Assembly: GCA_903844845.1 (NCBI GenBank)
Contig: CAIMVG010000015.1
Coordinates: forward strand, 1-44,394
Direction of reading: 5' to 3'
Origin: an uncultured Dehalococcoidia bacterium
GTDB lineage: Bacteria; Chloroflexota; Dehalococcoidia; Dehalococcoidales; UBA1222
Length of the DNA: 44,394 bases
Of this stretch, positions 25,440 to 30,765 are shown piece by piece. Made by a program: the position numbers and the translations under genes. Numbering within the stretch: the first letter of the stretch is position 1; every line of letters begins with the position of its first letter. The notes under the pieces are model-generated. The model made no database searches, was not told the origin of the DNA, and saw nothing but the letters and a program-made list of their open reading frames with translations.

Positions 25440-25952
25440 CTATGTGACGGTTACTGTCCCGTAAACCCATTGGACCCCGTCCAGCCAGAACTTGTATGTA
25501 CCGGGTTTGTTGAAATTGAACGGGATAAGAGCCAGCGGGTCCATGTTCATTGTAAACGGGGCGTCGCTCCACAGCTTGTGATAATTGCAGCAATCCTCAT
25601 TCTTGAAATCCACCTTGGTTCCCGCGCTGACAGTCAGTGACATCGGATAAAAGATGCCATCGACTCCGATAACTATGGTGGGGTTGTTCTCTGCGGCGGG
25701 AAGAGAAGGTTCGCCCGTAACTATCGGTTCTGGCGTTGATGACGGAGCTGCCGCCGTGGTTGTAGGGGAAGTTGAAGTAGCTGCGGGTGTGCCCGAATAT
25801 GGTTGGTTTGTCGTTTTGACCGTGGACGTAACCGGCGCCGTTCCACCGCAGGCTGTAAAAAGGATGCAGGCCGCAAGGCTAAAAATCGGCAATGACCGGA
25901 TAAGTTTATTATTCAATAGAAATATCCTGTATAAAATGTTGTGGAGTTGCAT
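25440..25952 (-). CDS. Cupredoxin-like lipoprotein
   Basis: A 170-aa exported lipoprotein. The lipobox is LFTAC with C35 (counting from ATG 25952). A Thr/Ser/Pro-rich linker (about 38-82) follows, then a beta-rich domain of about 85 residues with the cupredoxin pattern MSLTVSAGTKVDFKNED and KPGTYKFWLDG. The first copper-type His is present (NYHKL, H125), preceded by two cysteines (C121, C122). The usual C-terminal C-x-H-x-M cluster is absent. ATG 25952 has no ribosome-binding site; TTG 25916, 12 codons in, has AGGA upstream and gives a more compact signal peptide, so it may be the true start. Confidence 0.75.
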   Translation of the reverse strand: MQLHNILYRIFLLNNKLIRSLPIFSLAACILFTACGGTAPVTSTVKTTNQPYSGTPAATSTSPTTTAAAPSSTPEPIVTGEPSLPAAENNPTIVIGVDGIFYPMSLTVSAGTKVDFKNEDCCNYHKLWSDAPFTMNMDPLALIPFNFNKPGTYKFWLDGVQWVYGTVTVT

Positions 25953-26022: not shown

Positions 26023-26097
26023 GCGGGAGTAATTCAGTGGTAGAATGTCTGCTTCCCAAGCAGAATGTCGCGGGTTCGAGTCCCGTCTCCCGCTCCA
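26023..26097 (+). tRNA. tRNA-Gly (anticodon CCC)
   Basis: A full cloverleaf: acceptor GCGGGAG/CTCCCGC, D stem ATTC/GAAT, anticodon stem TCTGC/GCAGA with loop TTCCCAA, and T arm GCGGG-TTCGAGT-CCCGT. CCA is encoded at 26095-26097. Confidence 0.96.
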
Positions 26098-26838: not shown

Positions 26839-28089
26839 GTGGTTACAAAGACAGAAGACAATTCTGAAATTCGTAAACGGGAAGATCTAGGTCTTCGCGA
26901 ATCCCGCAGGCTGGAACGTATCTTTCTTTATCACCGTTGGCTATATGTCGTCGCGATAATCCTCATGGCGCTTGTTTATAAGGATCTGCCTCTCACGGCC
27001 ATCATCGGCCTTTCCGTCAGCCTGGGTTTAGTCAACGTGTTTGACTGGTTCATATATCGCAAAATCGGTTCACTTCAAGAGCAGACTATGTTGAGCCTGG
27101 GGATGCTTTCCGTGGACGGGCTGGTCTCGTGGGGATTGATGCTTCTTTTCATCCGCCAGCCTTCGGCCATCGTTTACGCGATCTTCGCGCTGGTGGTTAT
27201 CGAAGGGGCCGTGCGTTTCAGTCTTGCTGGGAGTCTGCTTACCGGATTATTCTTTATTATCGGGTTGTCCGGGGCATGGATCTACCGCGTTAGCGTGCTG
27301 GGGATGAATTTCGACCTGGCCGCGTACGTTTTTTGGGTCGGGCTCATAACCCTTCTGTCCATTATGGTGGGAATGTCGGTACGGGAAGGGCGCAAGCAGC
27401 GGGCTTATGCGGAGACGCTTTCAAATGAAAAGGCTCTTTTTATCGAACGAAGGCGTATCTCGAACGAGCTCCACGATACTGTGCTTAAAAGTCTCCAGGG
27501 GCTTGCCCTTGAAGCCCATGCGCTTGGTAAAATCCCCGAAAACCGAGAATCCGCCGTCGAATCGAGGGCCCGTTACATCGAAGAGGTCTGCAACGGAATG
27601 AGCCAGGAGATCAGGGGGGTAGTGCTTGAATTACGCGAATCTGAAGGCAACAAAGCTCAGGGCCTTAAGCCTCAGATGACGGAAATCGTCGATACCTGGG
27701 GCAAAGGTTCGAAAATACCGGTAGACCTGATTTTCAAAGGTGAAGTGCCGGTTTTGCCGTTGAAGCTTTCGCATGATATACGCAGGGTCGTAGGTGAAGC
27801 GCTGGCTAATATCCAGAGGCATTCAGGCGCAACGAGAGTAGATATGGAGTTCACGGCTTCTGGGGATTCTCTGGAGTTGAAGATAAGTGATAACGGGCAT
27901 GGCTTCGACTTCACGCCGGAAGACCTGTACGCGTTTGTCGGTAAAGGAAGGCTGGGGCTGGTTTCGATGAAAGAACGCGTAGAATTGGCAGGTGGCACCT
28001 TCTGCCTGACCAGCAGCGGCGATGGAACAACCATCTATGTCTACGTCCCTTTGGGAAAGTCTAGAAGGCATATGCCGGAGCCTTTATGA
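26839..28089 (+). CDS. NarL-type sensor histidine kinase (membrane, HisKA_3)
   Basis: A 416-aa kinase. Five or six TM segments occupy about 34-180 with no large extracellular sensor domain, so it may sense within or near the membrane. The HisKA_3 dimerisation motif ERRRISNELHDTVLKSLQGL carries the phospho-His H212. The HATPase shows EALANIQRHSGA (N box), DNGHGFDF and GRLGLVSMKERVELAGG. GTG 26839 start; AAGGAG lies 13 nt upstream, rather far. Overlaps the response-regulator gene by 4 nt, so the pair is a two-component system. Confidence 0.92.
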   Translation: MVTKTEDNSEIRKREDLGLRESRRLERIFLYHRWLYVVAIILMALVYKDLPLTAIIGLSVSLGLVNVFDWFIYRKIGSLQEQTMLSLGMLSVDGLVSWGLMLLFIRQPSAIVYAIFALVVIEGAVRFSLAGSLLTGLFFIIGLSGAWIYRVSVLGMNFDLAAYVFWVGLITLLSIMVGMSVREGRKQRAYAETLSNEKALFIERRRISNELHDTVLKSLQGLALEAHALGKIPENRESAVESRARYIEEVCNGMSQEIRGVVLELRESEGNKAQGLKPQMTEIVDTWGKGSKIPVDLIFKGEVPVLPLKLSHDIRRVVGEALANIQRHSGATRVDMEFTASGDSLELKISDNGHGFDFTPEDLYAFVGKGRLGLVSMKERVELAGGTFCLTSSGDGTTIYVYVPLGKSRRHMPEPL

Positions 28090-28727
28090 ACAAGATACGT
28101 GTGTTTTGCGTGGATGACAATTTTGTCGCCAGGCGCGGACTGCGGAGCGTGCTTGAATCCGAAAGCGATATTGAAATCGTGGGGGAGGCGTCAAGCGGCT
28201 CGGAAGCCCTAAAACGACTTCAAGGATGTATTGCGGACGTGGTACTTATGGACATCCGGATGTCGGATATCGACGGTATCGAAGCCACATCGCTTCTTTT
28301 ACAACAAAATCCCGAAGCGCGGGTGTTGATGGCAACGGTTGTCGAAGACCCCAGGGTACACATGAACGCCATGCTCGCAGGGGCCAGGGGCTACATGGTT
28401 TACGGGCACTTTATTCCGGAGTCGCTTATCGCAGCGGTCAAGGCCGTAGCTTCCGGTCAACGCGTTAATATCCCGCCATTGCCGGAGGAAGCTGTGTTCG
28501 CGCCTGTCGAGAGCGAAGGCAATGAACTGACCCAGCGTGAAGTCGAGATAATGAAGCTGATAGCTGCAGGGAAAGACAATCGCGAGATTTCTGGAGCGCT
28601 CAATATCGAAGAAAAGACCGTGAAAAACCATATCAACAATATCTATTCAAAACTTCATGTAACCACACGGCAGGAAGCCATATATTTCATGCTTAACCGC
28701 ATGCTCAGGGATAAACCGCAGGAATAG
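28086..28727 (+). CDS. NarL/FixJ-family response regulator
   Basis: A 213-aa regulator. The receiver domain has D10/D11 and the phospho-acceptor D56 (VVLMDIRMSD); the switch Thr is in LMATVV. The conserved Lys of GYLLK is Tyr here (GARGYMVYGHF), which is unusual. The C-terminal LuxR-type HTH is LTQREVEIMKLIAAGKDNREISGALNIEEKTVKNHINNIYSKL. ATG 28086 overlaps the kinase TGA, so the two are translated together. Target promoters unknown. Confidence 0.93.
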   Translation: MNKIRVFCVDDNFVARRGLRSVLESESDIEIVGEASSGSEALKRLQGCIADVVLMDIRMSDIDGIEATSLLLQQNPEARVLMATVVEDPRVHMNAMLAGARGYMVYGHFIPESLIAAVKAVASGQRVNIPPLPEEAVFAPVESEGNELTQREVEIMKLIAAGKDNREISGALNIEEKTVKNHINNIYSKLHVTTRQEAIYFMLNRMLRDKPQE

Positions 28728-28730
28728 CAT

Positions 28731-30449
28731 TTAACTCTCGCCGGTGTCAGCCTGTCCGGGAGGGTTGCTATTTTTCAGACGAGATGTGCCTATTATTGCT
28801 TTTCCCATTGCCAGTATATTGTGCGGGCGCATGAGCAGATGCAGGCCGTCCGCGGAACGCGGGCCATCCGATAGCCGGTTGATGTTTGTTATTTCAGGCA
28901 GCAGCATGGCGATCTCTTCGGGGGAAACATCACTTTCGAATTTGGCGATGCGCTTCACCATCTCCATCCCCCTCTCGTAAACCGCGGCCGCGCGTTCAGC
29001 CGTGATGGCTGTGATCTGTCCGTATTTAGCTTTCAACCGGATCAGCCGTGCCAGAATAGCGTAGGTCGTTAGGGCGAGCTCCTGGGACGACATCTCCCGT
29101 GTGCGATATTCAAGCCTGTCGCTCCAGCAGGGCAGGCTCATGCCTTCGATATAATCCTTAAAATCCTTAAAACGGGAGACGAAACCGTACCCGGCCAGCG
29201 CTCCGAAACCTGCGGATGCCGGGGAAGAGACGGGTGTGATCGTGAGCGAAATGCGCTTGTCACCATCGAAGGCCCTCAGCAGCGATTCGCAATAAACAGA
29301 AGTATCGTAAACGGATTCAGGGGTCTGACCCGGGAGCCCGGCCATGAATGATATCTCTATGCGCCCTGTTCCTGCTTTAAGGGCTTCCGATATGGTCGAT
29401 TCGATGTCGGCATTGGAATAATTCCTGCCTGCCGCCTTTCTCAAAGCCTCGTCGTGGCTCCCTGGAGTTAGCCTTAATTGGAAGCGCGGCGCGGACCGGG
29501 CTATTTCTTGTATGAAGAATGGCTTAACAACTCCGCGGGATTCGAATACCAGGTAATTTCGGGCGGGCTTATGTTGCAGCAGGCTTAAGAGTTGCTCGGC
29601 AAAATGGCCTCCGGGAGCGAGGATGTCCCCCTTTACTACGATGGGACTGGCGGTATAGCGGCACAATTCGACGATTTCGCGATAGATATCTTCAGGGCTC
29701 CGATAGGACAAGGCCGTCGGTGTGTCGTTTAAAATGTCTGCCAGGGTTATCTCGAGACCCTCTTTGCGGCTGGCTGCGATCTTTACACAGGGATGATTCA
29801 AAATGTCGGCTATGAACGGATTGGCCCCGGGATCGTGTTGTTTCAGTGCTTGGTTGAGGGCTGCGCGGCGCATCTCGGAAACGACGATGGTTTTAGCCGG
29901 AACCTTGTGTGAGAATTGGTTGATGCGGGTTTTGCCACTTTTTGCCTTCCATGCAAGGTCAAGTACTTTGATGAGACTGTTCGTACCTGAGGACTGTATA
30001 AGTTCAATACACGCTTGCTCGTCAAGGCTGTCAAGCAGCACGGCGTCTATCTGGGTAAAACTTAACAATTCTTTTTCGAGCGCCGCAGCTACCCGGCCGA
30101 ACAGGACCGTTTTCGTTTCAGGATGCAGTTTTTTAACAGTCTCTGCAATTTCAAGCGCTTGCGGGATCTCTTCCCGTTCTTCGATTTCCAACGCTAAGAT
30201 GGGCGTGACTGACTTCTCGATGTAAGCACTGAGGTCGAAGTGCTGTTTTGGAGAAAGTGAAGCCATGTCGACTATACGGATTTTCCTTCCCGTATTGTTG
30301 ATCTCGTTGACTGCCCGAAGCAGGTCCTCGTTCTGAGAATTGTCTCCTACGCGTGATTCGGTATCGGAAACAGGGGGGTGGAGCAAAGGTTTTTCGGGGT
30401 AATCGTATATTGAGGGCGCACGGGCCACGATGATATCGCTTTTTTGCAT
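28731..30449 (-). CDS. B12-binding/radical-SAM-like protein lacking the iron-sulfur cluster cysteines
   Basis: A 572-aa protein built like B12-binding radical SAM enzymes. The start DIIVARAPSIYDYPEKPLLHPPVSDT matches their N-terminus. ETKTVLFGRVAAALEKELLSF...DAVLLDSLDEQ (about 111-145) fits the B12-type Rossmann domain, but no DxHxxG is seen. Where the family has SRGCPxxCxFC, this protein reads SRKEGLEITLA (227-237), so all three cluster cysteines are missing. Barrel features downstream remain: YRSPEDIYREI, LRLTPGSHDEALRKAAGRNYS, FMAGLPGQTPES. It is probably not a SAM-cleaving enzyme. Its 3' end faces the NarL regulator gene. Confidence 0.7.
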   Translation of the reverse strand: MQKSDIIVARAPSIYDYPEKPLLHPPVSDTESRVGDNSQNEDLLRAVNEINNTGRKIRIVDMASLSPKQHFDLSAYIEKSVTPILALEIEEREEIPQALEIAETVKKLHPETKTVLFGRVAAALEKELLSFTQIDAVLLDSLDEQACIELIQSSGTNSLIKVLDLAWKAKSGKTRINQFSHKVPAKTIVVSEMRRAALNQALKQHDPGANPFIADILNHPCVKIAASRKEGLEITLADILNDTPTALSYRSPEDIYREIVELCRYTASPIVVKGDILAPGGHFAEQLLSLLQHKPARNYLVFESRGVVKPFFIQEIARSAPRFQLRLTPGSHDEALRKAAGRNYSNADIESTISEALKAGTGRIEISFMAGLPGQTPESVYDTSVYCESLLRAFDGDKRISLTITPVSSPASAGFGALAGYGFVSRFKDFKDYIEGMSLPCWSDRLEYRTREMSSQELALTTYAILARLIRLKAKYGQITAITAERAAAVYERGMEMVKRIAKFESDVSPEEIAMLLPEITNINRLSDGPRSADGLHLLMRPHNILAMGKAIIGTSRLKNSNPPGQADTGES

Positions 30450-30545
30450 TTTATTCTTTCAGGCGCACGCAAAGCGTGACGGAGGGATTTATAAGATAAT
30501 TATATCATTCGGCCGGTAATTCTGTATGGATGTTGGGATAGCGGC

Positions 30546-30586: not shown

Positions 30587-30659
30587 GGGCCGCTAGCTCA
30601 TTTGGTAGAGCACTTGACTTTTAATCAAGTGGTGCTGGGTTCGAGCCCCAGGCGGCTCA
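30587..30659 (+). tRNA. tRNA-Lys (anticodon TTT)
   Basis: Acceptor GGGCCGC/GCGGCTC (one G-T pair), D stem GCTC/GAGC, anticodon stem CTTGA/TCAAG with loop CTTTTAA, T arm CTGGG-TTCGAGC-CCCAG. CCA is not encoded, in contrast to the tRNA-Gly in this window. Confidence 0.96.
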
Positions 30660-30765
30660 CTCTTAACTTCCACCGGATTCTCCGCATTTATTCTGTGTTC
30701 TTCTTTTTTGAGATTTCACGTTAGTATCAACAGCATCAACGCTGTACGCAGAAGAACCATGAGAT

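Follow-up and report, generated by a model that had tools for sequence, protein, structure and literature searches.

The locus described here, from a member of the order Dehalococcoidales, lies in the window, by which we mean the whole stretch of 44,394 nucleotides that was analysed. It consists of a two-component system and a gene for a divergent radical-SAM-like protein (hereafter the target), set between two tRNA genes. The features are listed below with their coordinates in the window.

26023..26097, + strand: tRNA-Gly(ccc), the other conserved border of the block.
26839..28089, + strand: membrane histidine kinase (HisKA_3/HATPase_c), a conserved neighbour, from domain matches and the orthologous locus.
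28086..28727, + strand: LuxR-type response regulator, convergent (tail to tail) with the gene of the pseudoenzyme, from a domain match.
28731..30449, - strand: pseudo-radical-SAM protein of 572 aa, a divergent TIGR04190 homologue, from a profile match and the orthologue L005:1498-3183.
29250..29705, - strand: barrel half, residues 249-400, with 20 of 22 family-invariant residues kept, from column comparison.
29739..29771, - strand: SRKEGLEITLA (residues 227-237), remnant of the cluster loop, shortened and without Cys, from comparison with relatives.
30159..30188, - strand: EIEEREEIPQ (residues 88-97), in the place of the lost cobalamin-site signature DLHWxVHxHG, from comparison with relatives.
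30452..30460, - strand: RBS-like GAAAGAATA before the ATG, GAAGGAATA in the orthologue.
30499..30507, - strand: extended -10 element TGATATAAT, with TGCTATAAT upstream of the orthologue.
30587..30660, + strand: tRNA-Lys(ttt), the conserved upstream border of the locus.

The block of tRNA-Gly, kinase, response regulator, pseudoenzyme gene and tRNA-Lys is common to this species and a second species of the genus. Beside the tRNA-Gly we also noted a lipoprotein-like ORF of 170 aa (25440-25952, - strand) with a weak cupredoxin-like match. Chance alone would produce the extended -10 pattern about once in a window of this length, and no full sigma-70 site upstream of the pseudoenzyme gene came out of a general promoter scan, so that the weight of this element rests on its conservation. 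The promoter-like element and the RBS, both conserved, are candidate expression signals of the pseudoenzyme. The stop codons of the regulator and pseudoenzyme genes are 3 bp apart in the window and about 38 bp apart in the orthologous locus, a spacing that could point to a role in transcription only, by antisense or terminator coupling to the response regulator, with the protein being incidental. We give this very little credence, because selection is detected at the amino-acid level (omega < 1, see below) and the RBS is conserved.

Radical SAM enzymes make up one of the largest enzyme superfamilies, in which annotation proceeds by fold and motif. A sequence-only reading of this DNA had placed on the reverse strand, at 28731-30449, a B12-binding radical-SAM-like protein whose cluster motif reads SRKEGLEITLA at residues 227-237. 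Position, strand, length and motif were all correct, and our re-reading agrees that the frame of 572 codons is intact, without any interruption. The proposed homology is borne out by the match to TIGR04190 (NCBIfam, B12_SAM_Ta0216; E 5e-65, 220 bits), which is full-length, with residues 5-499 of the target on profile positions 1-507; the equivalog cut-off of TIGR04190 (500 bits) is reached neither by the target nor by its orthologue (288 bits). The Pfam radical SAM profile PF04055 scores 25.8 bits on the target, below its gathering cut-off of 29.5, and aligns only from residue 249 on, past the lost loop. The B12-binding profile PF02310 is not among the matches listed at E values up to 1 for the target; the paralogue L002 matches it at 9e-15. 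Searches with the target sequence returned no match among solved structures at E <= 1 and none in the defence-system library.

The target contains cysteines at positions 147, 221, 263, 387 and 441 only, and CxxxCxxC is absent from all of its 572 residues. The other reading frames across the cluster loop carry no Cys motif either, which makes a frameshift artefact unlikely. A displaced motif, whether in another part of the protein or in a different frame, could have overturned the idea of a lost cluster site; it was searched for in the whole protein and in the other frames and is ruled out. An assembly or frameshift artefact is likewise ruled out by the same state and an intact frame in an independent genome. 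Both the target and its orthologue thus lack the CxxxCxxC of a functional radical SAM enzyme.

The cysteines had been described as replaced in place by E, I and A. Comparison with relatives contradicts this. The spacing between the (Y/H)P and (Y/F)R anchors, counted by eye, is 34 residues in the family (VTAVFTCRGCNYNCIFCSG...), 28 in the target and 26 in the orthologue, which leaves the cluster loop with 6 to 8 residues fewer than its counterparts and indicates that deletion shortened it in addition to the replacement. The absence of a B12 motif had also been claimed, on the grounds that DxHxxG is missing. The cobalamin site is indeed lost when the target is set against its relatives, but a missing DxHxxG is no proof of it, as the family signature is not the classical one but an invariant DLHW(L/M)VHxHG; at this position the target reads EIEEREEIPQ and the orthologue GMNETVQVRD. 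With neither the signature nor PF02310, the target is predicted to lack a functional B12-binding domain, and compared with its active homologues it has lost residues essential for catalysis, as a pseudoenzyme has.

The losses are unevenly distributed. Of the columns that are at least 95% invariant across 59 Cys-bearing relatives, those of the B12 domain are matched by the target in 9 of 24 cases and those of the cluster loop in 3 of 9; in the barrel (251-400) 20 of 22 are retained. With columns at least 90% conserved, 29 of 83 are kept in residues 1-248 vs 32 of 38 in residues 249-400 (Fisher p 5e-7). The same regions of the orthologue give 39/83 and 29/38 (Fisher p 0.003). Target and orthologue have jointly lost 46 family-conserved positions, 11 of which carry an identical new residue (e.g. 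W91E, G42D, N447E, W452E). The retained barrel residues D275, E303, H332, D333 and R337, together with the new residues common to the pair (H219, C263, K273, E447, E452), could be taken as signs of a new enzyme, in which the barrel would catalyse some reaction without radicals or hold a metal or cluster by means of different residues. Only Cys 263 and Cys 387 are common to both orthologues, however, and one of these is a general family residue; two shared cysteines are too few, which disfavours a cluster held by other cysteines, and a recognisable new motif was not found in the pair. We consider a new enzyme improbable.

The same genome encodes two Cys-bearing TIGR04190 paralogues, a divergent pair on contig C21 that match the profile with 603 and 621 bits (E 4e-181 and 3e-186) and have the cluster motifs CRGCNYNCIFC and CKGCDHNCIFC. 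One of them is followed by a UbiA prenyltransferase gene and three nitroreductase genes, and one of these two active paralogues was confirmed in the second species of the genus. The orthologue of the target (561 aa) comes from the genome of that species and is about 38-39% identical over its whole length; it has no cluster motif (the site reads FKTGCAASPLFVS) and no B12 signature. A conserved orthologue with the same replacement, which the sequence-only reading had named as a check, therefore exists.

Beyond this pair the cysteines are retained. Among 68 distinct homologous frames of the order, 63 have the cysteines and two, the target and its orthologue, do not; the remaining three are fragments that do not cover the cluster site and are uninformative. 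A single-sequence scan of the GTDB genomes gave no match. Using a 13-member alignment we found relatives at 233 GTDB species loci, of which the best 80 were retained; the cysteines are kept in 83/83 homologues at these best 80 of 233 loci, with no further Cys-less member among them, and in 27/27 further loci fetched from the class (the order, GTDB and class sets overlap in some records). Neither the order (156 genomes) nor a sample of the class (393 genomes) yielded another close relative of the Cys-less pair, and the eight other genomes of the family are without the pseudoenzyme. It is thus known from one genus and two genomes, each of which is split into many contigs. The target and its orthologue form one clade (support 100/100), and this clade and the 11 identical new residues are most simply explained if the loss predates the species split. 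The pair may belong inside the A-type clade, a placement to which synteny points and which the AU test does not reject (p 0.33). A fragment beside a histidine kinase-response regulator (HK-RR) pair in G055 (L083) was considered as a third pseudoenzyme and ruled out: it represents the C-terminal portion of a normal A-type copy and is 76% identical to the active paralogue.

Several other members of the family deserve mention. Two divergent TIGR04190-like copies in G144 (L084 and L085, contigs C33 and C29), 23-24% identical to the target, keep the cysteines and have no DLHW B12 signature, and may have changed their cofactor use. In the A-type copies L006, L014, L015, L016, L018, L031 and L075 the extra first Cys of CRGCxxxCxxC is often S, T, N or G; this residue lies outside the cluster motif and seems to be dispensable. 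Two GTDB loci labelled Deltaproteobacteria (L140, L133) have TIGR04190 genes close to those of Dehalococcoidales; the label of the L140 record is probably wrong, as it matches G040, which is assigned to Dehalococcoidales.

The loss of catalytic residues raises the possibility of a slowly decaying pseudogene that by chance is still open in both genomes, and the rate of change fits such decay. The tree tips of target and orthologue are 3.08 and 1.18 long vs 0.09 and 0.12 for the active orthologues, and identity between the two species is about 38-39% for the pseudoenzyme, 83% for the active orthologues, 67% for the kinase and 73% for the regulator. To separate rate from constraint we used codon models. 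In a free model the silent lengths ran to the bound (24.9) and the resulting omega was unusable; we therefore tied the silent branch lengths to those of the active orthologue pair. In this model the target had an omega of 0.256 and the orthologue one of 0.163, vs 0.035 for the background, values that depend on the shared branch lengths because silent divergence between the species (>2) is near saturation. Neutrality (omega = 1) was rejected in both lineages (2dlnL 69 for the target, 71 for the orthologue), and for the target also with silent lengths halved or doubled. By region, the omega of the target was 0.41 in the first 219 residues, where neutrality was rejected more weakly (2dlnL 12) and where weak constraint would suit decay, and at most 0.15 behind the loop, being lowest in residues 249-400 and 401-572. 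Neutral simulation over the same silent distance left 15 to 23 stops (about 20) per copy, whereas both frames are intact. This expectation and the rejection of omega = 1 make decay unlikely; the non-random retention of conserved residues in the barrel and the conservation of promoter box, RBS and synteny argue against it as well, and we regard it as distinctly improbable. The pattern fits a constraint that is relaxed but real, concentrated on the barrel and the C-terminal part, and these codon models and simulation indicate retention under purifying selection, the second mark of a pseudoenzyme.

We had an AlphaFold2 model of the target built with 74 relatives in the alignment (pLDDT 85, pTM 0.86). 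The former cluster loop (residues 230-236 and 240-245) is modelled with pLDDT < 50, whereas the loop of a Cys-bearing member is confident. The best structure matches of the target model (Foldseek, VIA) are TsrM, CysS, AprD4, MgmA, OxsB and TokK, with a best Foldseek E of 3e-13 (TsrM, 6wte) and VIA Z scores that reach 18.5, at an rmsd of 4.2-4.4 over 424-435 aligned residues; the model of the Cys-bearing member gave an identical list. The target is thus predicted to consist of a partial TIM barrel and a B12-type Rossmann domain, the fold of radical SAM proteins, a prediction carried in part by relatives since the alignment consists of Cys-bearing ones. A match to an unrelated fold would have spoken against the original assignment; the matches are to B12-dependent radical SAM enzymes. 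The sequence-only reading had gone on to call the protein repurposed, non-SAM and not decaying. Its rejection of decay agrees with the codon models. "Non-SAM" holds for the Fe-S cluster, whose site is gone, but the barrel may still bind SAM or another nucleoside, and "repurposed" concerns the present job of the protein, which can only be proposed.

The genomic neighbourhood bears on this job. In family f16 (G024, G057, G055) the tail-to-tail neighbour of an HK-RR pair is UbiA, behind which comes an A-type TIGR04190 enzyme; in G002 the tail-to-tail neighbours are an amidohydrolase and an A-type TIGR04190 enzyme, and in G005 the neighbour is UbiA, with nitroreductases on the other side. In G003, G004 and G007 the pair has different neighbours. 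These repeated neighbourhoods link the HK-RR pair to the TIGR04190/UbiA cluster; the pseudoenzyme sits where these other genomes have that cluster.

HisKA_3/LuxR pairs were seen at 26839-28727 of the window and at L222:493-2366, L219:5829-7734, L223:1881-3721, L097:5511-7461 and L101:5183-7170, and the tail-to-tail arrangement with UbiA and/or an active TIGR04190 gene recurs in two families of the order, which suggests that the pair controls a TIGR04190/UbiA pathway. UbiA is near TIGR04190 genes in 13 of the best 80 of 233 GTDB loci. On C21 (L067:7793-17182) an ABC transporter lies between the divergent active paralogues, with UbiA and three tandem nitroreductases on one side; this is possibly a prenyl/lipid or quinone modification cluster.

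The reading we prefer, with a probability of roughly 0.55, is that the target is a TIGR04190-type pseudoenzyme kept by purifying selection, one that probably serves the UbiA/TIGR04190 pathway as a regulatory partner or as a ligand sensor. Taken by itself, the statement that it is a retained non-catalytic protein is one we hold with considerable confidence; its assignment as a regulatory partner or sensor of this particular pathway is tentative. In the scheme we envisage, a B12/radical-SAM gene of the TIGR04190 type was duplicated, and the cluster loop and cobalamin site were lost in the ancestor of one genus. Loss of both sites would remove ordinary radical-SAM chemistry while purifying selection persisted on the C-terminal helices and on that side of the barrel which faces the substrate or nucleoside. 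The protein would still fold and could bind the pathway substrate, the active paralogue or both, and binding might tune the UbiA and TIGR04190 pathway, whose two-component system adjoins tail to tail; binding partner, ligand and direction of regulation are what we infer here. We put at somewhat below even odds the bolder version, in which the scaffold, stripped of both cofactors, has turned into a stable protein for signalling or regulation (a ligand sensor or a dead partner) and is linked to the two-component system controlling the pathway. Against such coupling, the pseudoenzyme gene is convergent with the kinase and regulator genes and shares no operon with them, and the active enzymes sit on another contig (C21) of the target's genome.

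A related proposal dispenses with the kinase: the target would be a prozyme-like heteromeric subunit that activates or inhibits an active TIGR04190 paralogue. The retained fold and barrel, the occurrence of both active paralogues in the target's own genome (with one of them confirmed in the second species) and the precedent of a dead S-adenosylmethionine decarboxylase paralogue (PMC5201418) are in its favour. The absence of the pseudoenzyme from the eight other genomes of the family weighs against it, and we think it rather unlikely, if less so than a new enzyme or decay.

If the regulatory or sensor reading is true, the target is a clear case of a radical-SAM pseudoenzyme without either cofactor and under selection, and the two-component system governs a lipid- or prenyl-type pathway of the active paralogues. 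Confirmation would mean that a radical SAM fold can persist for binding or regulation alone, would provide a natural control for separating barrel residues that serve the substrate from those that serve the cluster, and would tie the unnamed TIGR04190 family to UbiA prenyltransferase and a dedicated two-component system. Our search of the literature on TIGR04190 and on cysteine-less radical SAM proteins, with partial coverage (few subscription journals), returned nothing relevant, and a retained radical SAM member without its cluster seems a topic seldom covered.

Compared with known systems, the target is closest to the TIGR04190 family, with which it shares full-length homology, domain order and predicted fold. 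It is ~30-34% identical to the Cys-bearing relatives of the order and differs from the family in having lost the CxxxCxxC loop and DLHWxVHxHG. The predicted fold also matches TsrM, CysS, TokK, OxsB and MgmA over most of its length; these enzymes bind cobalamin and [4Fe-4S], whereas the target has neither site and is 9-13% identical to them. AprD4 (6fd2), a radical SAM 1,2-diol dehydratase of similar fold (VIA Z 18.1), retains the B12-type domain without using cobalamin. It is a precedent for the loss of one cofactor but, unlike the target, retains the cluster and is catalytic. The trypanosomal prozyme (PMC5201418) is a dead paralogue that activates S-adenosylmethionine decarboxylase. It belongs to another enzyme family, where activation has been demonstrated and not, as for the target, only proposed; it is likewise a dead paralogue beside active copies, and as such a model for the way in which the target might act.
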